From Phyllobacterium sophorae (lineage in GTDB: Bacteria; Pseudomonadota; Alphaproteobacteria; Rhizobiales; Rhizobiaceae): DNA of 64,000 nt. The stretch covers positions 310,001 through 374,000 of the forward strand of contig NZ_PGGM01000001.1 of NCBI RefSeq assembly GCF_003010965.1, written 5' to 3'. Positions 51,793 to 62,691 of the stretch are shown in pieces. The position numbers and the translations under genes are program-made. The notes beneath the pieces were generated by a model, which saw nothing but the letters and a program-made list of their open reading frames with translations, had not been told where the DNA came from and did no database searches. The stretch's first letter is position 1, and each line of letters begins with the position of its first letter.

Positions 51793-52100
51793 GTGTCCGC
51801 CGTTGTTAAGATGGTTCAAGGGTCAAGTTCGGATCATGCCGCACCTCGCATCTTCCAACGGGAATGCGGTCATACTTGGTCAAAAGCAGAAAAATTGAAT
51901 ACTATCAAATGTTTAATCGATTTAAAGAATTTAAATTTTTTTAAATCGGTTTAAATAAGAGAAATTTCCGCGATTCTTCCGTGTGCGTAAAAGTAACCAA
52001 ATGTGGTGAAGATGACATCACTCGCGAACTGTGCCACATTTTGTACCTAATTTGTCCGGCACAAGCAGCCTCAATGTAATGGCACAAGGAAAGGCAGGGC
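51793..52100. promoter_or_regulatory. Divergent pckA/chvI control region
   Basis: A 308-base spacer with a very AT-rich core at about 51900-51960 made of repeated TTTAAA units. A 9-bp inverted pair, CGATTTAAA at 51918-51926 and its complement at 51940-51948, is the cleanest dyad. It must carry the pckA and chvI promoters; direct control of pckA by ChvI is known in related bacteria, but no ChvI box is certain here. Confidence 0.5.
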
Positions 52101-52820
52101 ATGAGGGAAGTACCCGCAATGCAGACAATCGCGCTCGTCGATGACGATCGCAACATTCTGACCTCCGTATCGATCGCGCTTGAATCCGAAGGCTACCGGG
52201 TCGAGACTTATACCGATGGCGCGTCCGCGCTCGATGGTTTGATGGCCCGTCCGCCAAATCTTGCCATATTCGATATCAAGATGCCGCGGATGGATGGGAT
52301 GGAGCTCTTGCGCCGCCTGCGCCAGAAATCCGATCTGCCGGTGATCTTCCTCACATCAAAAGATGACGAGATCGACGAACTCTTCGGCCTTAAGATGGGC
52401 GCCGATGATTTCATCACCAAACCGTTCTCACAGCGGTTGCTGGTCGAGCGGGTCAAGGCAGTCCTGCGCCGTGTCGCGGCGAGGGATACCGTGGTGAAGC
52501 CCGGCAGTCCCCAGGCAAAATCACTTGAGCGAGGCCAACTCGTTATGGATCAGGAACGTCATACCTGTACCTGGATGGGCGAGCCCGTCACTCTCACCGT
52601 AACAGAGTTCTTGATCCTGCATTCCCTGGCCCAACGACCCGGTGTCGTCAAAAGCCGTGACGCTTTGATGGATGCGGCCTATGATGAACAGGTCTACGTG
52701 GATGATCGCACCATCGACAGCCACATCAAGCGACTGCGCAAGAAGTTCAAGGTCGTCGATGACGATTTCGATATGATCGAGACCCTCTATGGCGTGGGCT
52801 ATCGTTTCCGCGAAACCTGA
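52101..52820 (+). CDS. chvI: ChvI response regulator
   Basis: OmpR-class regulator of the acid/envelope response essential for host interaction in rhizobia, Agrobacterium and Brucella (BvrR). The N-terminus [21 protein letters not shown] and [11 protein letters not shown] place the phospho-accepting Asp at residue 58 (52 if the start is 52119); LTSKDDE and TKPFSQRLL follow. The winged-helix DNA-binding domain covers about 135-235. The ATG at 52119 ([10 protein letters not shown]) has GGGAAG upstream and is an alternative start. Confidence 0.96.
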
Positions 52821-52904: not shown

Positions 52905-54752
52905 TTGTCTCAACGCGCCGTGAATGCGATGAGGCAACGCAATTTACAAGTTTCTGAGGCAGAAATGGTAGCCGGGCTTCAAAGCGGCAATATTACGCGC
53001 AAGAGCGCCGTTATGCGCCGGAAGCGTTCGCTTGCCTTGAGGCGCTTCTTCAAGCCGCTTAATCGCGTCTTCGGCAATTACCTGTTTTCAAGCCTTACCC
53101 GGCGAATTCTCTTTCTCAATCTCGCTGGCTTGGCAGTCCTTTTGTCCGGCATAATGTATCTCAATCAGTTTCGCGACGGACTGATCGATGCGCGCGTCGA
53201 AAGCCTGATGACACAGGGAGAGATCATCGCCGGCGCAATCGCCTCGTCGGCAACGGTCGACACCAACTCCATTGCGATCGATCCCGAAAAGCTCCTGGAA
53301 CTACAGGCGGGTCAAAGCCTGACCCCGTCGCCGGACGTTCTGGACAATCTCGATTTTCCGATCAATCCGGAACGTGTGGCGCCGGTCCTGCGCCGGCTGA
53401 TTTCGCCGACACGCACCCGGGCCCGCATTTACGATCGTGACTCGAACCTCCTGCTCGACTCCCGCCATCTTTATTCGCGCGGCCAGGTGCTGCGCTACGA
53501 GCTTCCGCCGATCGATGGCGAGGAGCCCAGTTTCTTTGAGCGTCTGACCAACCGGATGACGCGGCTTCTCCGCCGAAGCGACTTGCCGATTTATCAGGAA
53601 CAGCCGGGCGGTAACGGCTCGTCCTATCCCGAAATCGTCAAGGCCCTGACCGGCTCACCGGCCACCGTTGTGCGCATGACGGAAAAAGGCGAGCAGATCG
53701 TCTCGGTCGCCGTGCCCATCCAGCGCTTCCGCGCGGTGCTTGGTGTGCTGCTGCTTTCGACAGAAGGCGGTGACATCGACAAGATCGTTCAGGGCGAACG
53801 CTTCGCGATCATCCGCGTGTTCACGGTTGCCGCGCTGGTCATGGCTATCCTGTCGCTGTTTCTGGCTTCGACCATCGCCAATCCGCTGCGCCGTCTTGCG
53901 GCAGCTGCCGATCGGGTCCGCCATGGCGTAAAGAACCGCGAAGAAATTCCCGACTTCTCCGAGCGTCAGGACGAAATCGGCCATCTTTCCACATCGATCC
54001 GCGACATGACCAATGCGCTATACGCCCGGATCGAATCAATCGAGAGTTTTGCGGCGGATGTCAGCCACGAGTTGAAAAACCCGCTAACTTCGCTGCGCAG
54101 CGCCGTCGAAACGCTGCCGCTCGCCAAGAACGACGAGTCGCGCAAGCGGCTCATGGACGTGATTCAGCACGATGTGCGCCGCCTCGACCGTCTGATCACA
54201 GATATCTCCGATGCATCACGGCTCGATGCCGAACTCGCGCGTGAGGATTCAGAACATGTCGATCTGAAATTTCTGCTCGGCAATCTCGTCACTGCGGCGC
54301 GCGAGGTCAGGCGCAACAAAAAGGACACGCGGATCGAATTCGTGGTTGGCAAGCTTCCGAACAACAAGAAGGGCTTCTACGTTGTCGGTCATGATTTGCG
54401 CCTGGGCCAGGTCGTCTCCAACCTGATCGAGAATGCACGCTCCTTTGTTCCGGAAGAAGATGGCGTCATTACAGTCACGCTTCAGCATATGGGCGACCGT
54501 ATCCGCATTCTGGTCGATGACAATGGCCCGGGCATCCGCGTTGAACAGATCGACCGGATATTTGAGCGGTTCTATACGGACCGGCCTTCTGGCGAAGCCT
54601 TTGGCCAGAATTCCGGGCTCGGCCTGTCCATCAGCCGTCAGATCATCGAGGCCCATGGCGGCACGCTAAACGCCGAGAACATTATCGATCCCAAGGATCC
54701 GGACAATTATCTCGGCGCGCGATTTATCGCTATCCTCCCGGTCGAGGTCTGA
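52905..54752 (+). CDS. chvG: ChvG sensor histidine kinase
   Basis: Membrane sensor partner of ChvI (ExoS/BvrS). Membrane helices at about 66-86 and 299-325 frame a periplasmic sensor domain where ExoR would bind; a HAMP-like linker follows. The H-box is ADVSHELKNPLTSLRS with His388; the N-box is NLIENARSF, G1 is DDNGPGI, and G2 is NSGLGLSISRQI. Three starts are open (TTG 52905, ATG 52929, ATG 52965 with GAGG upstream). The stop overlaps hprK by one base. Confidence 0.96.
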   Translation: MSQRAVNAMRQRNLQVSEAEMVAGLQSGNITRKSAVMRRKRSLALRRFFKPLNRVFGNYLFSSLTRRILFLNLAGLAVLLSGIMYLNQFRDGLIDARVESLMTQGEIIAGAIASSATVDTNSIAIDPEKLLELQAGQSLTPSPDVLDNLDFPINPERVAPVLRRLISPTRTRARIYDRDSNLLLDSRHLYSRGQVLRYELPPIDGEEPSFFERLTNRMTRLLRRSDLPIYQEQPGGNGSSYPEIVKALTGSPATVVRMTEKGEQIVSVAVPIQRFRAVLGVLLLSTEGGDIDKIVQGERFAIIRVFTVAALVMAILSLFLASTIANPLRRLAAAADRVRHGVKNREEIPDFSERQDEIGHLSTSIRDMTNALYARIESIESFAADVSHELKNPLTSLRSAVETLPLAKNDESRKRLMDVIQHDVRRLDRLITDISDASRLDAELAREDSEHVDLKFLLGNLVTAAREVRRNKKDTRIEFVVGKLPNNKKGFYVVGHDLRLGQVVSNLIENARSFVPEEDGVITVTLQHMGDRIRILVDDNGPGIRVEQIDRIFERFYTDRPSGEAFGQNSGLGLSISRQIIEAHGGTLNAENIIDPKDPDNYLGARFIAILPVEV

Positions 54753-55210
54753 TGGAAAAGCAAAGTGGTGAACTTTTGCACGCGACCGCTGTTCTGGTCG
54801 GCGACCGCGGCGTTCTGATCAGTGGGCCCTCGGGGTCGGGCAAATCGTCGATTGCGCGCGCTCTGATGGACAGGGCGTCGACCAGGGGGCTGTTTGCAGC
54901 ATTGATCAGTGATGATCAATGTCAGATTTGGCGAGCGTCGGGACGCCTGATGTGCACCGCCCCCGCCGCGTTGCAAGGCGGATTGGAGGTCCGCGGTTCA
55001 GGCCTTCATTCTGTGGATTTTGAGACGGCCGCGGTCATACATCTCGTTGTTGAATTGATCGAACGAGATCATGCGGTTCGATTTGCGGATGGCGCCACGG
55101 CACAACTACAGGGTGTCGCGATCCCACACCTTCTTCTACCAAAACGGGAAATCGAGGCTGCCTGCCGTGCTGTGGAAGCGAGACTTTTTTGCCCCCAGTG
55201 GAAAAAATAG
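54752..55210 (+). CDS. hprK: HPr kinase/phosphorylase, short alphaproteobacterial form
   Basis: Phosphorylates HPr on serine. The 152-residue protein keeps only the catalytic domain: P-loop GPSGSGKSS at 25-33, SDDQ as the Walker-B-like segment, and GLEVRGSGLHSV near 87-98. Full-length firmicute HprK is about 310 residues; alphaproteobacteria usually have this short form. Its ATG overlaps the chvG stop (TGATG), tying it to the sensor. Confidence 0.95.
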   Translation: MEKQSGELLHATAVLVGDRGVLISGPSGSGKSSIARALMDRASTRGLFAALISDDQCQIWRASGRLMCTAPAALQGGLEVRGSGLHSVDFETAAVIHLVVELIERDHAVRFADGATAQLQGVAIPHLLLPKREIEAACRAVEARLFCPQWKK

Positions 55211-55393: not shown

Positions 55394-55795
55394 ATGATCG
55401 GACTCGTGCTTGTGACGCACGGAAGACTGGCTGAAGAATTTCATCATGCCGTGGAGCATGTTGTCGGCCAGCAGGAATATCTGGAAACCGTATCAATCGG
55501 TGCAGATGATGATATGGAGCAGCGCCGGCGGGATATCGTCGATGCCGTGGCCCGGGCTGACAATGGCTCGGGCGTTATCATCCTGACAGATATGTTTGGC
55601 GGAACGCCTTCCAATCTGGCGATTTCCGTGATGGAGTCAGGGCGGATCGAAGTCATCGCCGGAGTTAATCTGCCGATGCTGATCAAGCTTTCCAGTGTCC
55701 GCGTTACCAATGACATGGCGGCGTCGTTGCGGGAAGGCCAGGATGCGGGACGGAAATATATCAACGTGGCCAGCCAGGTGCTGACAGCCAAATAG
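55394..55795 (+). CDS. PTS EIIA component, mannose class
   Basis: A 133-residue EIIA(Man) domain protein with His9 in VLVTHGRLAEEF as the phospho-acceptor and ILTDMFGGTPSNLA typical of the family. No permease (EIIC/EIID) is present, so it is probably a regulatory end point of the phosphorelay rather than a sugar transporter. AGGAG precedes the ATG; a 183-base gap with no gene separates it from hprK. Confidence 0.94.
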   Translation: MIGLVLVTHGRLAEEFHHAVEHVVGQQEYLETVSIGADDDMEQRRRDIVDAVARADNGSGVIILTDMFGGTPSNLAISVMESGRIEVIAGVNLPMLIKLSSVRVTNDMAASLREGQDAGRKYINVASQVLTAK

Positions 55796-55819: not shown

Positions 55820-56134
55820 ATGCGCCTGACTGCTGAAACGACCGGCACATTTGATCCGGACAATGCCCTTGTGGAGTCATTCGAGATCATCAACCGGCGC
55901 GGGCTGCATGCGCGCGCCTCGGCAAAGTTCGTCCAGCTGGTTGATGGCTATGATGCCCACGTCCGTGTCGAAAAGGATGGCATGACGGTTGGCGGCACAT
56001 CTATCATGGGTCTGATGATGCTTGCAGCCTCCCCGGGCTGCTGTATCAAGATCAGCGCTTCCGGACTTCAGGCGCCTGAAGTGATGAAGGCTCTCGGCGC
56101 TTTGATAGCTGATAAATTCGGCGAAGAAGCCTGA
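55820..56134 (+). CDS. ptsH: HPr phosphocarrier protein
   Basis: A 104-residue HPr with a 19-residue N-terminal extension. Both phosphorylation sites are present: His30 in NRRGLHARAS (His15 equivalent, for EI) and Ser61 in VGGTSIMGLM (Ser46 equivalent, for HprK). With hprK and EIIA upstream it completes most of a regulatory PTS; EI must be encoded elsewhere. A 174-base spacer to ahcY shows no clear riboswitch. Confidence 0.95.
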   Translation: MRLTAETTGTFDPDNALVESFEIINRRGLHARASAKFVQLVDGYDAHVRVEKDGMTVGGTSIMGLMMLAASPGCCIKISASGLQAPEVMKALGALIADKFGEEA

Positions 56135-56308: not shown

Positions 56309-57709
56309 ATGGCCGAGAAACAGGACTACATCGTCAAGGACCTTGAACTGGCTGCTTGGGGCCGCAAGGAAATCGAAATCGCCGAAACCGAAATGCCTGG
56401 CCTGATGGCCAGCCGCGAAGAATTTGGCACGTCGCAGCCGCTTAAGGGTGCCCGCATTACCGGGTCCCTGCACATGACGATCCAGACCGCCGTCCTGATC
56501 GAAACCCTGCAGGCACTCGGCGCCAAGGTCCGGTGGGCATCGTGCAACATCTTCTCGACCCAGGATCATGCCGCTGCAGCTATTGCTGCAACCGGCACGC
56601 CGGTCTTCGCCGTCAAGGGCGAGACTCTTGAAGAGTATTGGACCTACACCGATCAGATTTTTCAATGGCCGGATGGCCAGCCTTCCAATATGATTCTCGA
56701 TGATGGCGGCGACGCCACCATGTACATCCTGATTGGCGCACGCGCGGAAGCCGGGGAAGACGTCCTGTCCAACCCGGGCAGCGAAGAAGAAGAAATCCTC
56801 TTCGCGCAGATCAAGAAGCGCATGAAGGAAACCCCGGGCTTCTTCACCAAGCAGCGCGATGCGATCAAGGGCGTGACTGAAGAAACCACGACCGGCGTCA
56901 ATCGTTTGTATCAGCTGCAGAAGAAGGGCCTACTGCCTTTCCCGGCGATCAACGTCAACGACAGTGTCACCAAGTCGAAATTCGACAACAAGTACGGCTG
57001 CAAGGAATCGCTGGTTGACGGTATCCGCCGCGCCACCGACGTCATGATGGCTGGCAAGGTTGCTGTTGTTTGCGGCTACGGCGACGTCGGCAAGGGTTCG
57101 GCCGCGTCGTTGCTTGGGGCCGGCGCTCGCGTCAAGGTGACGGAAGTCGATCCCATTTGCGCACTGCAGGCCGCGATGGACGGTTTCGAAGTGGTAACCC
57201 TCGAAGATGCGGCTCCAACGGCCGACATCATCATCACCACAACCGGCAATAAAGATGTCATCACCATCGATACCATGCGCAAGATGAAGGACATGGTGAT
57301 CGTCGGTAATATCGGCCACTTCGACAACGAGATCCAGGTCGCCGCATTGCGCAATCTGAAGTGGAGCAACATCAAGCCTCAGGTCGATATGATTTCGTTC
57401 CCGGACGGCAAGCGCTTGCTGCTCCTTTCCGAAGGAAGGCTGCTTAACCTTGGCAATGCAACAGGTCATCCAAGCTTTGTCATGTCAGCCTCGTTCACCA
57501 ACCAGGTTTTGGCTCAGATCGAGCTATACAGCCGCGGTGAACAGTACAAGAATGAGGTTTACGTCCTGCCGAAGCACCTGGACGAAAAAGTCGCCCGTTT
57601 GCATCTCGACAAGCTCGGCGCGAAATTGTCGGTTCTTTCCGAAGAACAGGCTGCCTATATCGGTGTAACGCCGAGCGGCCCGTTCAAGTCGGACCACTAC
57701 AGATATTGA
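56309..57709 (+). CDS. ahcY: S-adenosylhomocysteine hydrolase
   Basis: Splits SAH to homocysteine and adenosine, keeping methylation going. The 466-residue protein has NAD-binding [13 protein letters not shown], the catalytic-region [10 protein letters not shown] and [14 protein letters not shown], and [14 protein letters not shown]. It ends KSDHYRY, as in the family. A terminator follows. Confidence 0.97.
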
Positions 57710-57740: not shown

Positions 57741-57776
57741 GCCGGAGAATTGACAAATTCTCCGGCTTTCTTTTTT
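57741..57776 (+). terminator. Terminator after ahcY
   Basis: Stem GCCGGAGAATT with its complement (57741-57751 and 57756-57766) around GACA, then TTTCTTTTTT. Confidence 0.93.
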
Positions 57777-57906: not shown

Positions 57907-60438
57907 ATGACGATTGGTGAAGGTGATGTTCGCAGTAAACATGCAGCATACGGACGACCTGTGCTGAGAAAGTTGCGGACACTGCTTGCCAGTGCGAGTT
58001 CGGCAATGCCCATTGTTTTGGCCGCTTCATCTGCCGCGCACGCCCAGGATGCGCTGGGTAAAATCAACACGCCATTCGGTGTGGAGGTGGGCACATTCGA
58101 AGTCGTGCAATTCGCGATGTTTCTCGGCGCCATGGGCGCGGCGCTGCTCTCGGCGGGTTGGCTGATCCGTGAGCGCAGCCGCATTGCCAATGAAAATCGC
58201 CAGCTACGCGACAAGGTCGCAGATCTCAATGTCACCGTTCAGCGCAATGAGGCCATGCTCAATCTCAAGGACCAGCGCATAATCGTCTGGGAAGGCGCTT
58301 CAAGCACACCAAATCTTGTCGGCACCCTGCCGCCCGAGATCGGTGTTCCGGAGGCGCGGGCACTATTCCTGGCTTTTGGCCGTTGGCTCCAGATCGACTC
58401 GGCGACATTGCTTGATCGCTCGATCTCGGCATTGCGCGAAAAGGCGCGGCCGTTTGATATTGCGATCGAGACTTCGAAGGGCGCACCGCTGGAAGTTCAA
58501 GGTCGCACCTCCGGCGGCTATGCTATCGTCCGCTTCATCAATCTCGGGGAGGCGCGGGCGGCACAGGCGTTGCTCAAGACCGAGAATTATCAACTCAGTG
58601 AAGCCGTCGGTACGCTGCGCGGGCTCCTGGAGGCGGTTGATATGCCGGCCTGGCACCGCGATGGCGATGGCCGTCTTACCTGGGTGAACATGGCTTACGC
58701 CAAGGCGGTGGACGTTCGCGACGCGCGCACTGCAGTCAGCGATGCGCGTGAACTGTTTGGTTCGCAAGCCCGCGAGCGCATTGAGCGGGACAAAGCAGCG
58801 AACCGTCGATTCCACGATCAGCTATCGACGGTCGTCGGCGGAGACCGTCACGTCTTCCGGGTGACAGACGTTGCCGGTAGCGCCGGCTCCGCAGGGCTCG
58901 CGGCCGATATCAGCGAAATCGAATTGATTCGCGAAGAGTTCAAGCGAACCGTGCTAAATCATTCGGACACGCTGGATCAGTTGAATTCTGCCGTCGCGAT
59001 GTTCGACGCCAACCGCAAGCTGCAATTCTTCAATCAGGCCTTTGCCAAGCTATGGGGGTTGGAAACAGCTTTTCTTGAGAGCAGCCCCGACAATGCCATG
59101 CTGCTCGATCGCTTCCGCAGCGACGGCATACTGCCGGAGCAACCGGACTGGCGGCGTTGGAAAGACCAGGTTCTAGCGGCCTATCACTCTGTCGAGTCGC
59201 AGGAACATGTCTGGTATCTGACTGACGGCCGCACGCTGCGTGTCATCGTCAATCCGCAGCCGAAGGGCGGTGTCACATGGGTCTTCGAGAACCTGACGGA
59301 AAAGCTCGAACTGCAGAGCCGCTATAACACACTCATCAAGGTTCAGGGCCAGACACTGGATCACCTCGCTGAAGGCGTTGCCGTATTCGGCTCCGATGGC
59401 AAGATCCGCCTCTCCAATCCCGCTTTTGCATCGTTGTGGTCGTTGAAACGCGAACAGATCGCCGAAGGCTTGCATATTTCGGCGATCCGCCGGCTGTGCG
59501 AGCCTGTCTCGGACGCTGCTCACTGGGAAACCTTCGTCACGACGGTCACCGGTTTCGATGACGAACGTCAATCGCTCTCCGGCCATATCGAACTCAGCAC
59601 CGGCAAGATCCTGTTTTACGCGACAGCGCCGTTGCCGAACGGCCAAACCATGCTCACTTTCGTCGACGTTACCGACTCAGTCCAAGTTGAGCGCGCATTG
59701 AAGGAAAAGAACGAGGCGCTGGAAAGAACGGATGAACTGAAGAACGATTTCGTGCAGCACGTATCCTACGAACTGCGCTCGCCTCTGACCAACATCATTG
59801 GCTTTACCGAACTTCTGCAGACGCCGATGACCGGACCGCTCAACGATCGCCAGCGCGATTACCTCGATCACATCGGCACCTCCTCTTCGGTATTGTTGAC
59901 CATCGTCAATGATATTCTGGATCTTGCCACCGTCGACGCCGGCATTATGGAGCTCGACATAAGCGATGTCTCGGTCACAGATGCCGTGACGACGGCCTCC
60001 GAAAAGGTCGCCGAGCGGTTGAAGGAGCATAATATCCTGCTGGATATTCGCATCGAGCCTGGAACAGGCTCCTTTCGTGCCGATGCCAGCCGTGTCAAAC
60101 AGGTCCTGTCAAATCTGCTGAGCAATGCCGCCAATTACGCTCCGGAAGGTAGTACGGTGACGCTCGCTTGCCGGCGGGAGCAGGCCGAAATGGTCTTCAG
60201 CGTACACGACAGTGGCCCTGGCATGCCTGATTATGTCCTCGACAGCATTTTCAAACGCTTCCAGCCCTATCCCAATGGCGGGCGCAAGCGCGGCGCCGGG
60301 TTGGGACTTTCAATTGTGAAGGGATTTGTCGAGCTGCATGGCGGCACGGTCGATATCAGCAGCGCCGCCGGGATGGGTACGCAGGTTACTTGTCGCTTCC
60401 CCCTGGAGGCGCGGACATTCAGCATCGCTGCCGAATAA
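57907..60438 (+). CDS. divL: DivL-like PAS sensor kinase with tyrosine in the H-box
   Basis: An 843-residue membrane-associated kinase homologue. A signal-like N-terminus (about 20-48) and a membrane helix at about 64-88 precede a coiled coil, several PAS domains (about 225-600), a dimerisation helix and an ATPase domain. The H-box reads FVQHVSYELRSPLTNIIGF: Tyr621 stands where other kinases have the phospho-accepting His. This is the mark of DivL, which in Caulobacter controls CckA and so CtrA. N-box (NLLSNAANYAPEG), G1 (DSGPGMP) and G2 (GAGLGLSIVKGF) are kept. The ATG at 57907 follows GGATGGGG. Neighbour to ahcY and tsaE, as in other Hyphomicrobiales. Confidence 0.9.
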   Translation: MTIGEGDVRSKHAAYGRPVLRKLRTLLASASSAMPIVLAASSAAHAQDALGKINTPFGVEVGTFEVVQFAMFLGAMGAALLSAGWLIRERSRIANENRQLRDKVADLNVTVQRNEAMLNLKDQRIIVWEGASSTPNLVGTLPPEIGVPEARALFLAFGRWLQIDSATLLDRSISALREKARPFDIAIETSKGAPLEVQGRTSGGYAIVRFINLGEARAAQALLKTENYQLSEAVGTLRGLLEAVDMPAWHRDGDGRLTWVNMAYAKAVDVRDARTAVSDARELFGSQARERIERDKAANRRFHDQLSTVVGGDRHVFRVTDVAGSAGSAGLAADISEIELIREEFKRTVLNHSDTLDQLNSAVAMFDANRKLQFFNQAFAKLWGLETAFLESSPDNAMLLDRFRSDGILPEQPDWRRWKDQVLAAYHSVESQEHVWYLTDGRTLRVIVNPQPKGGVTWVFENLTEKLELQSRYNTLIKVQGQTLDHLAEGVAVFGSDGKIRLSNPAFASLWSLKREQIAEGLHISAIRRLCEPVSDAAHWETFVTTVTGFDDERQSLSGHIELSTGKILFYATAPLPNGQTMLTFVDVTDSVQVERALKEKNEALERTDELKNDFVQHVSYELRSPLTNIIGFTELLQTPMTGPLNDRQRDYLDHIGTSSSVLLTIVNDILDLATVDAGIMELDISDVSVTDAVTTASEKVAERLKEHNILLDIRIEPGTGSFRADASRVKQVLSNLLSNAANYAPEGSTVTLACRREQAEMVFSVHDSGPGMPDYVLDSIFKRFQPYPNGGRKRGAGLGLSIVKGFVELHGGTVDISSAAGMGTQVTCRFPLEARTFSIAAE

Positions 60439-60445
60439 GGCACCT

Positions 60446-61954
60446 ATGACCTCAATCAGCATTCAGCTCGCAACGACAGAAGAAACCGAACGCCTTGGCC
60501 AGGACTTGGCGCTTGCGTTAAGAAAAGGCGATCTCGTCACGCTTTCCGGCGACCTCGGCGCGGGTAAGTCGACGCTGGCGCGCGGTTTGATCCGTGCGAT
60601 TGCCGACGATACTGACTACGAGGTGCCAAGCCCGACCTTCACCATCGTTCAGTCGTATCCGGAACTGCGCGTCCCGGTCAGCCATGTCGATCTCTACCGC
60701 CTTTCCTCTGCCGATGAAATTGATGAGCTTGGCCTGGATGAAGCATTGGAAGACGGTGTTGTCCTGGTCGAGTGGCCGGAACGGGCAGGCCAAGTCCTGC
60801 CAACAGCAAGCCTTCACCTGTCCCTGATCAGCGATGGCGACGGGCGAAAAGCATTGGTTGATGGTGAACCCGCCGCCATAGCTCGGCTGCAGCGCTCATT
60901 GGAAATTCGAAATTTCCTGACGGAAGCCGGGTTGGGAACCGCCCGGCGGCGCTATCTGCTCGGCGACGCGTCAGCACGGGGCTATGAAACAGTTTCGACC
61001 GGAGACGAGCTTCCGCTCATCCTGATGAACTCGCCATATAATCCTGGCGGACCTGTTTTGCGCGACGGCAAGACTTACATGCAGATCGCTCATCTGTCCC
61101 AGTCGGTGACGGCATTTGTTGCCCTCGATAGATTGTTGCAATCGAAGAAATTCAAGGTGCCCGCGATCCTCGCCGAAGATCTCGAGAGGGGGTTTCTGCT
61201 CCTGGAAAACCTCGGTAGTGATGGAGTGCTGGATGCCACGGGTGCACCAATTCCTGAACGCTACGAGGCGGTAGTTCGTCTGCTGGCGAAAGTGCATCAG
61301 CAATCATGGCCGCGGGATATCGAGGCGGCCGAAGGTTATTCACATCATATCCACAACTTCGATCGCGACGCGATGATGATTGAAGTGGAGCTGCTTTCGG
61401 ACTGGTATGTTCCCCGCATGCGCGGGTCGCCACTTGGATCTGCGAAAAAATCGGACTATGTCGCCGCCTGGGACGAAGTATTTAGCCAATTAATCAATGC
61501 CGAGCAAAGTCTGCTGCTGCGTGACGTGCATTCGCCCAATATTCTCTGGCGCAGCAGCGCGACAGCCACCGACCGCATTGGTTTGATCGATTTTCAGGAC
61601 GCGATGATCGGCCCGTCGGCCTATGACGTGGCATCGCTGGTTTTCGATGCGCGGGTGACCATTCCACCGGAGCTTCAGGATCATTTGCTCGCCGCTTATC
61701 TCGACGAGCGTCGATCGGGCAGTGAGGATTTTGATGAAGAGGGTTTCCGCAGGGCCTTTGCTATAATGGCGGCGCAGCGCAATGCCAAGATTCTCGGTAT
61801 CTTTGTCCGCCTTGACGAACGGGACGGCAAACCTTTCTATCTGCAGCACCTTCCTCGCATCAAGGCCTACCTCAATCGCGTCATTGGCCACCCTGCACTG
61901 GCGCCGGTCAAGGATTGGTGCGAAAAGGCAGGTATCGTAAATTCGGAGAGTTGA
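60446..61954 (+). CDS. TsaE-AmgK fusion protein
   Basis: A 502-residue two-domain protein. Residues 1-150 are TsaE, the ATPase for the t6A tRNA modification, with P-loop GDLGAGKST (35-43) and VEWPERAGQVLP. Residues about 152-502 are an aminoglycoside-phosphotransferase-fold kinase with LLLRDVHSPNILWRS (catalytic Asp) and GLIDFQDAMIGPSAYDVASL, the AmgK type that phosphorylates the anomeric carbon of N-acetylmuramate/N-acetylglucosamine. The murU gene follows at once, which supports this. Begins eight bases after divL. Confidence 0.9.
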   Translation: MTSISIQLATTEETERLGQDLALALRKGDLVTLSGDLGAGKSTLARGLIRAIADDTDYEVPSPTFTIVQSYPELRVPVSHVDLYRLSSADEIDELGLDEALEDGVVLVEWPERAGQVLPTASLHLSLISDGDGRKALVDGEPAAIARLQRSLEIRNFLTEAGLGTARRRYLLGDASARGYETVSTGDELPLILMNSPYNPGGPVLRDGKTYMQIAHLSQSVTAFVALDRLLQSKKFKVPAILAEDLERGFLLLENLGSDGVLDATGAPIPERYEAVVRLLAKVHQQSWPRDIEAAEGYSHHIHNFDRDAMMIEVELLSDWYVPRMRGSPLGSAKKSDYVAAWDEVFSQLINAEQSLLLRDVHSPNILWRSSATATDRIGLIDFQDAMIGPSAYDVASLVFDARVTIPPELQDHLLAAYLDERRSGSEDFDEEGFRRAFAIMAAQRNAKILGIFVRLDERDGKPFYLQHLPRIKAYLNRVIGHPALAPVKDWCEKAGIVNSES

Positions 61955-61959
61955 TTTTA

Positions 61960-62691
61960 ATGACGAAGCCCCGTACCGCAATGGTTCTGGCAGCCGGTCT
62001 CGGCAAGCGCATGGCTCCGATTACAGACACGATCCCCAAGCCCCTGGTAAAGGTAGCCGGCAAACCATTGATCGATTGGGGGCTGGACGCGCTCGCAAAT
62101 AATGGTGTCGAGCGTGCAATCGTCAATACGCACTATCTCGCTGATCAATTGGATACGCATTTGGCGAAGAGGAGCGTTCCCGAGATTCTCGTTTCAGATG
62201 AACGTACAGAGCTGCTTGATTCTGCAGGTGGCATCGTCAATGCACTGCCGCAGATAGGGACCGAGCCGTTTTATGTCATCAATGCGGACACTTTCTGGAT
62301 TGACGGGGCGATACCAAATCTTGTCCTCCTGGCGGAAGGATGGGATGATGCGCGCATGGACATTCTCCTGATGATCGCGACGAAGCACCAGGCGACCGGC
62401 TATGACGGCCGCGGGGATTTCAACATGAACGCGGAGGGTAAGTTGCGCCGGCTCGCAGCGGATGAGACATCGCCCTATATCTATGCCGGTGCAGCCATCA
62501 TCCACCCGCGCATCTTTGCCGAAGCATCGGCAGGCAAGGCTTCGCTGAACCATTATTTTGACGCAGCAATTGCTGCGGACCGGCTTTACGGTGTGCCAAT
62601 GGAGGGTATTTGGCTGACGGTCGGGACACCCGGCGCCATCGGTGATGCGGAAGCCGCTATCGCCCGCGCCGGTCAAGGGATCCATGGCTGA
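61960..62691 (+). CDS. murU: N-acetylmuramate-1-phosphate uridylyltransferase
   Basis: Makes UDP-MurNAc from MurNAc-1-P in the cell-wall recycling path that bypasses fosfomycin-sensitive de novo synthesis. The 243-residue protein has the nucleotidyltransferase signature MVLAAGLGKRMAPITDTIPKP and VINADTFWID, and a C-terminal GIWLTVGTPGAIGDAE. GGAGAG lies nine bases before the ATG at 61960. It overlaps addB by eight bases. Confidence 0.91.
   Translation: MTKPRTAMVLAAGLGKRMAPITDTIPKPLVKVAGKPLIDWGLDALANNGVERAIVNTHYLADQLDTHLAKRSVPEILVSDERTELLDSAGGIVNALPQIGTEPFYVINADTFWIDGAIPNLVLLAEGWDDARMDILLMIATKHQATGYDGRGDFNMNAEGKLRRLAADETSPYIYAGAAIIHPRIFAEASAGKASLNHYFDAAIAADRLYGVPMEGIWLTVGTPGAIGDAEAAIARAGQGIHG

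Follow-up and report, generated by a model that had tools for sequence, protein, structure and literature searches.

A DivL orthologue with tyrosine at the H-box in Phyllobacterium sophorae, and histidine-bearing relatives nested among tyrosine-bearing DivL proteins

Histidine kinases (HKs) with a substituted acceptor histidine are put at about 1% of sequenced HKs (PMC5361649). DivL of Caulobacter crescentus, with Tyr550 at this site, is described as having neither autokinase nor phosphatase activity and as binding phosphorylated DivK (DivK~P), which docks on the DHp helices next to Tyr550 (PMC4211667). According to the same account, the PAS region of DivL adds a preference for the phosphorylated form of DivK, and the Y550H variant remains inactive on its own, although DivK~P can stimulate it (PMC4211667). 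Tyr550 is there called conserved throughout alphaproteobacterial DivL, except for an alanine in Magnetospirillum magneticum (PMC4211667). The PAS domains are reported as required for CckA binding by DivL (PMC4211667; PMC11500502). In Sinorhizobium meliloti, divL is described as probably essential (PMC11500502), and in Brucella abortus the gene is reported as part of the 16-gene BvrR/BvrS operon, together with the two-component system, hprK, EIIA, HPr, ahcY, tsaE and a sugar nucleotidyltransferase (PMC9491525).

The DNA analysed here is a stretch of 64,000 nucleotides from Phyllobacterium sophorae (contig NZ_PGGM01000001.1, positions 310,001 to 374,000), referred to as the window. In it, a response regulator, a ChvG-like kinase, HPr kinase, EIIA, HPr, ahcY, divL, a tsaE–AmgK fusion and a MurU-like gene follow each other in this order:

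52092..52817, + strand: chvI/bvrR-like response regulator (Response_reg and Trans_reg_C), named from its place beside chvG
52905..54752, + strand: chvG/bvrS-like sensor kinase (NF058527 ChvG, 494.7 bits, under the cut-off of 740)
54752..55210, + strand: hprK-like HPr kinase (PF07475)
55394..55795, + strand: PTS EIIA-man protein (PF03610)
55820..56134, + strand: HPr phosphocarrier (PF00381)
56309..57709, + strand: ahcY (TIGR00936, 591.5 bits, above the cut-off of 497.6)
57907..60438, + strand: divL, pseudo-histidine kinase of 843 residues (open frame; HisKA and HATPase_c; 4q20 as best solved relative by sequence; 80 relatives)
60446..61954, + strand: tsaE fused to an AmgK-like kinase (PF02367 and PF01636; NF045698 AmgK, 201 bits, under the cut-off of 500)
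61960..62691, + strand: murU-like nucleotidyltransferase (NF045697, 228.9 bits, under the cut-off of 370; PF00483)

The initial annotation had placed divL between ahcY and tsaE, and the TIGR00936 and PF02367 matches bear this out. The placement is widespread in the class and not special to the window genome. All 80 named loci, the best of 497 candidates, have tsaE no more than 600 nt downstream of divL, and in each of the 78 with enough flanking sequence ahcY is found upstream. A sample of 148 loci from the class gave both flanking genes in 58, ahcY only in 38, tsaE only in 13 and neither in 39; these counts are lower bounds, with 1.5 kb of flank in 29 of the 148 loci and divergent genes possibly missed. 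Since the flanking genes are shared across the named loci, the class sample and the Brucella operon, the placement is old and ordinary. Two fusions were seen in the course of this comparison. Between 60446 and 62691 of the window, a tRNA-modification domain (TsaE) is joined to an AmgK-like sugar kinase of cell-wall recycling and followed by the MurU-like enzyme. In locus L221 (genome G032), a DivL with serine at the acceptor site runs in one 990-residue frame into a TsaE domain (residues 839–965), which is 46% identical to the window TsaE and forms the sole DivL–TsaE fusion among the DivL frames compared.

The window divL reads as a single frame of 843 residues from an ATG start through the stop codon; a longer frame from a TTG at 57775 was rejected, as the alignments of close relatives begin at residue 1 of the ATG start. 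The following parts were assigned:

58093..58260, + strand: long helix, residues 63–118, putatively membrane-spanning at its start (AlphaFold2 helix; hydrophobic stretch in the sequence)
58273..59667, + strand: four PAS-like folds, about residues 123–212, 248–334, 362–462 and 490–587 (strand and helix order of the model)
59671..59940, + strand: DHp helices, residues 589–678, with Tyr621 in helix 1 (model; HisKA 612–679)
59767..59769, + strand: TAC codon of Tyr621, at the site of the phospho-accepting histidine (frame, alignment and codon reading)
59959..60402, + strand: CA (ATPase) domain, residues 685–832, with intact N, G1 and G2 boxes (HATPase_c 726–834; motifs; model)

By Pfam and the model, the protein thus has the layout of DivL, i.e., a membrane segment (predicted from the sequence), several PAS domains, DHp and CA. 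The AlphaFold2 model was built from 47 aligned sequences and has a mean pLDDT of 80.1 and a pTM of 0.34; because of the low pTM, the mutual placing of the domains is not to be trusted, and the fold search is of little use outside DHp–CA. Pfam matches PAS at residues 356–468 and 484–590, and the first two PAS-like folds are taken from the model, with their order read by eye. The DHp helices of the model comprise residues 589–638 and 647–678. When the whole model was used for fold searching, Caulobacter DivL (4q20) ranked 8th, after longer multi-domain chains, and first among chains of DHp–CA size, with about 38% identity over DHp–CA.

Similarity, phylogeny and synteny identify the window gene as a DivL orthologue, in agreement with the type assigned in the initial annotation. 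The solved relative closest by sequence is chain 4q20 (E 1.1e-46, runner-up 7.6e-30), through which, rather than through full-length Caulobacter DivL, the trees are linked to the Caulobacter protein. DivL rows are split from other kinases both by IQ-TREE (60 rows from 3, support 100) and by FastTree (196 rows from 11, support 88). Only one DivL gene is present in the genome, the next match being far weaker (6.1e-40), although many Rhizobiales genomes are reported in a survey to contain two divL homologues (PMC8116508). HisKA is matched 30 times in the window genome, and the nine best matches to the window DivL besides itself all have histidine in the aligned column. The nearest named relatives of the protein (best 80 of 497) are from Phyllobacterium strains and Rhizobiales isolates, at up to 91% identity. 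An NCBIfam search gave no DivL model among the 25 of 78 families listed, and every match was far under its cut-off. A record titled Bacillus subtilis strain SK6B4 (L046) contains a DivL locus 58% identical to that of the window, and Pseudochrobactrum records with the same score adjoin it; probably, the record is mistitled or its assembly contaminated.

The H-box of the window DivL reads HVSYELRSPL. An active HisKA domain has its acceptor histidine in this box; here Tyr621 stands in its place, as had been read from the sequence at the outset, and aligns with Tyr550 of chain 4q20. Tyrosine occupies the site in 80/80 of the named relatives (best 80 of 497), and Tyr621 is therefore not a sequencing error. 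The N, G1 and G2 boxes are likewise intact, with N740, D768, G770, G772, G796 and G798 all present, and the same six residues are retained in all 80 named relatives (best 80 of 497).

Our preferred interpretation, to which we give a probability of roughly 0.88, is that the window DivL is a membrane-bound, multi-PAS pseudo-histidine kinase that docks DivK~P, switches CckA and sets the level of CtrA~P. Lack of autokinase activity, binding of DivK~P and control of CckA are here predicted by analogy with Caulobacter and Sinorhizobium. In such a mechanism, the DHp helices would be unable to hold a phosphohistidine, so that no phosphate would be transferred, and would therefore serve as a dock for DivK~P instead of a phosphate relay. 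Binding of DivK~P would alter how the DHp helix bends at Tyr621, the PAS domains would relay this change and flip CckA between kinase and phosphatase, and the state of CckA would set CtrA~P. The genes of the pathway are all present in the genome, in line with the link to CckA and CtrA that had been proposed: DivK (79% identity to the Caulobacter probe, with a second receiver gene close behind), ChpT, CtrA (83%) and CckA (NF046020, 1458 bits against a cut-off of 1000). The further proposal that DivL reads the state of DivK through its PAS domains holds in part. As described for Caulobacter, the PAS domains are not by themselves the reader, since DivK~P docks on the DHp helices, but they do contribute the preference for the phosphorylated form (PMC4211667; PMC11500502).

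Tyrosine at the H-box had also been taken as a mark of DivL. Matches at E 1e-55 or better were found in 157 of 289 genomes of the class, of which 146 were counted with one row each (G053, with two matches, also as one row) and 11 were left out, their rows being weak or unlisted. The window (L086) and the duplicates L135 (=L111), L257, L260 and L279–L281 were excluded from the counts, as was L136, a locus of 100 bases; L262 and L263, each the second and weaker match of its genome, served as outgroup. The 148 class loci have Tyr in 127, His in 7, Phe in 4, Thr in 3, and Val, Ser, Arg, Gly, Gln, Leu and a stop codon in one each; counted by genome, 125 of 146 have tyrosine and 21 another residue. 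Tyrosine is thus the usual, not a strict, feature of DivL, and as a mark it stands for most of the class without being universal. Thr, Val, Ser, Arg, Gly, Gln or Leu occurs in nine rows. Eight of these (Thr, Val, Arg, Gly, Gln and Leu) have neither flanking gene and are assigned as orthologues solely by the tree, the ninth being L221 with its fused tsaE. Among the Tyr rows of the class sample and family f79, 102 of 132 have a complete set of ATP motifs. Phenylalanine is found in L096 and L104 (same order, family f2), L139 and L209, none of which has lost an ATP motif; L104 is flanked by ahcY and tsaE, and L096 adjoins tsaE. In L131 (genome G260), an in-frame TAG falls exactly on the Tyr/His codon of a divL that is otherwise open and lies between ahcY and tsaE; in this fragmented assembly, the TAG is possibly an error or the sign of a decayed gene.

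The residue at the site varies with the presence of DivK, which was searched for in all 146 class genomes and gave no match at E 1e-30 in 17. Among these 17 genomes, 8 have a residue other than tyrosine, compared with 13 of the 129 in which DivK was matched (Fisher p 0.0005); counted by family, the figures are 5 of 10 and 8 of 65 (p 0.011). Loss of tyrosine is thus commoner where DivK is missing, but the association is only suggestive, because related genomes are not independent, five DivK matches counted as present are weak (about 50% identity), and the eight changed rows without DivK have neither flanking gene in the stretch searched. Nine of the genomes lacking a DivK match retain tyrosine, and DivK is matched in the genomes of 13 changed sites, including the syntenic His sites. 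The association lends support to the view that DivL keeps its DHp part for DivK. It can also be cited for an improbable alternative, in which the window DivL would mainly serve CckA as PAS scaffold and activator, with the Tyr-bearing DHp–CA part left as an evolutionary remnant and only minor input from DivK. Published accounts lend this alternative further weight. They associate the absence of DivK with a DivL kinase part that is lost or decayed, down to shortened proteins without DHp–CA (PMC2877005; PMC9430884), and describe DivK as dispensable and DivL as essential in Hyphomonas neptunium, so that DivK input need not be central (PMC7200025). The window genome, however, has DivK, and the six ATP-site residues, intact in 80/80 relatives (best 80 of 497), and Arg624, invariant in the 47-row alignment, are unlike a remnant.

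The older name of DivL, tyrosine kinase, which also appears in the title of 4q20, suggests that the window protein might instead be an active kinase phosphorylating Tyr621. Intact ATP motifs next to a tyrosine at the acceptor site, in all 80 named relatives (best 80 of 497), would suit such an enzyme, but we consider this very unlikely: Caulobacter DivL is reported to lack autokinase activity in vitro (PMC4211667), and the four Phe-bearing proteins among the 148 class loci, all with intact ATP motifs, indicate that the hydroxyl group is not needed everywhere. That the protein is an active histidine kinase by way of another histidine in DHp is hardly credible, since the closest candidate, His618, although only three residues N-terminal of Tyr621 and common in the consensus of the 47-row alignment, corresponds to asparagine in Caulobacter DivL (GNVSYELR) and to Asn, Ser, Arg or Thr in the His-bearing kinases compared from the same genome, and the HisKA register sets the acceptor at 621. 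His618 was accordingly rejected as a displaced acceptor, and the dimerisation helix, in which the initial annotation had advised looking for a conserved histidine elsewhere, has Tyr621 at the acceptor position.

Histidine at the site is of more interest than the ordinary window gene. In the class sample, ahcY and tsaE flank five of the seven His rows, and neither gene is in sight beside the other two. In family f35, 23 of 25 genomes gave a match and all 23 have histidine, with tsaE downstream in 22 and ahcY upstream in 21; in the row without tsaE, the stretch searched ends directly after divL. All 18 genomes of family f79 were matched: histidine is found in 10/10 of genus g154, each with both ahcY and tsaE, and in 2/2 of genus g81, with neither gene within 1.5 kb, and the six genomes of other genera all have tyrosine. 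The His rows are L194, L196, L206 and L264–L286 in f35, L225, L228 and L252–L261 in g154, L105 and L247 in g81, and L220 in family f6. The histidine codon is CAC or CAT in 36 of 36 rows, one transition away from the tyrosine codons. From the histidine onward, 25 of the 36 read HELRT, the form usual in active kinases. The f35 and g154 proteins share with the window DivL the ahcY–tsaE locus and the PAS and HisKA domains, but differ from it in the histidine and from each other in the ATP site, the motifs of which are intact in f35 and eroded in g154. All six ATP-site residues are present in 23/23 of f35 and 2/2 of g81, versus 0/10 of g154 and 0/1 of f6; when one protein each of f35, g81 and g154 was compared with Pfam, HATPase_c was matched in the f35 and g81 proteins and not in that of g154. 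Each of the 17 f35 and 7 g154 genomes searched gave matches to DivK, ChpT, CtrA and a CckA-like kinase. Of the g81 genomes, G078 has DivK, ChpT and CtrA; in G291 (73% complete), ChpT was matched, DivK more weakly (56%) and CtrA not at all. The open-licence literature, outside which most subscription papers lie, yielded no description of a DivL orthologue with histidine.

Phylogenetic trees place the His-bearing proteins within DivL. All 36 distinct His rows fall on the DivL side, among Tyr rows, in a FastTree of 207 rows with the H-box column retained; the same holds for the 14 His rows included in a quick IQ-TREE of 63 rows from which this column was removed, with a fewest-change count of 7 (Tyr/His/Phe). 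In a more careful tree of 38 rows without other kinases, g154 joins two Tyr genera (support 98/95) and g81 three (87/79), and at least 5 changes are needed. The f6 row L220 groups with two Tyr rows of its own genus and would be a further His event. As the His rows nest within a Tyr clade, reversion from tyrosine to histidine is likely and well supported by these sequence trees. How many such events took place is uncertain. On the 63-row tree, one common origin for the His groups was not rejected (constrained tree 11 log units better, p-AU 0.68); on the 38-row tree, a joint clade of f35, g81 and g154 had p 0.024, and one of g81 with g154 had p 0.063. The groups were named after the first tree had been seen and the two sets of tests disagree, and we therefore claim nesting in the Tyr clade and not a count of reversions. 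Tyrosine would be the ancestral state, judging from its presence in most deep branches; change counts alone give no direction.

A tentative extension, which we rate at somewhat less than an even chance, is that the pseudokinase state of DivL is reversible, with f35 DivL perhaps a genuine kinase that is stimulated by DivK~P and feeds into the CtrA pathway. This would not extend to g154, where the eroded ATP site suggests a histidine that is only phosphorylated by a partner or structural. The f35 protein would then be the natural counterpart of Caulobacter Y550H, described as having autokinase activity only with DivK~P (PMC4211667). Should the His-bearing orthologues prove to be active kinases, DivL would not be locked in its inert state, and these natural proteins could show why most lineages keep tyrosine and how a DivL capable of kinase activity affects CtrA control.

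The window DivL itself is ordinary, one more member of a known family, and beyond confirming the annotation it adds little. Its gene order is presumably also that of Sinorhizobium meliloti divL. The S. meliloti protein, likened here by its published description, resembles it in belonging to a DivK/CckA/CtrA network (PMC11500502). The named genes of the Brucella abortus BvrR/BvrS operon recur in identical order in the window, known from its gene order; the operon differs in that additional predicted genes are described for it, which separate hprK from EIIA, precede ahcY and separate ahcY from divL (PMC9491525). With Caulobacter crescentus DivL (4q20), the window protein shares the tyrosine in place of histidine, a DHp–CA part with all HK boxes and PAS domains ahead of it (PMC4211667), as well as DivK, CckA, ChpT and CtrA encoded in the same genome. 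Caulobacter R553, T557 and A601 are retained as R624, T628 and A674, whereas Y562, H579 and D595 are replaced by Phe633, Tyr652 and Asn668; R553A, T557N, Y562A and H579E are reported to reduce DivK~P binding in Caulobacter (PMC4211667). With two of these sensitive positions, Y562 and H579, changed, the predicted docking surface appears to be mostly, though not wholly, kept. The position of T557 is asparagine in 100 of 212 Tyr-bearing DivL rows, even though T557N weakened binding in Caulobacter. The proteins differ further in sequence, at about 38% identity over DHp–CA, and in that lack of autokinase activity is a prediction for the window DivL. Finally, Caulobacter DivL is described as a weak binder of an ATP analogue (PMC4211667), in contrast to the fully canonical ATP site of the window DivL, and ATP binding may therefore carry more weight in the Phyllobacterium protein than in its Caulobacter counterpart.
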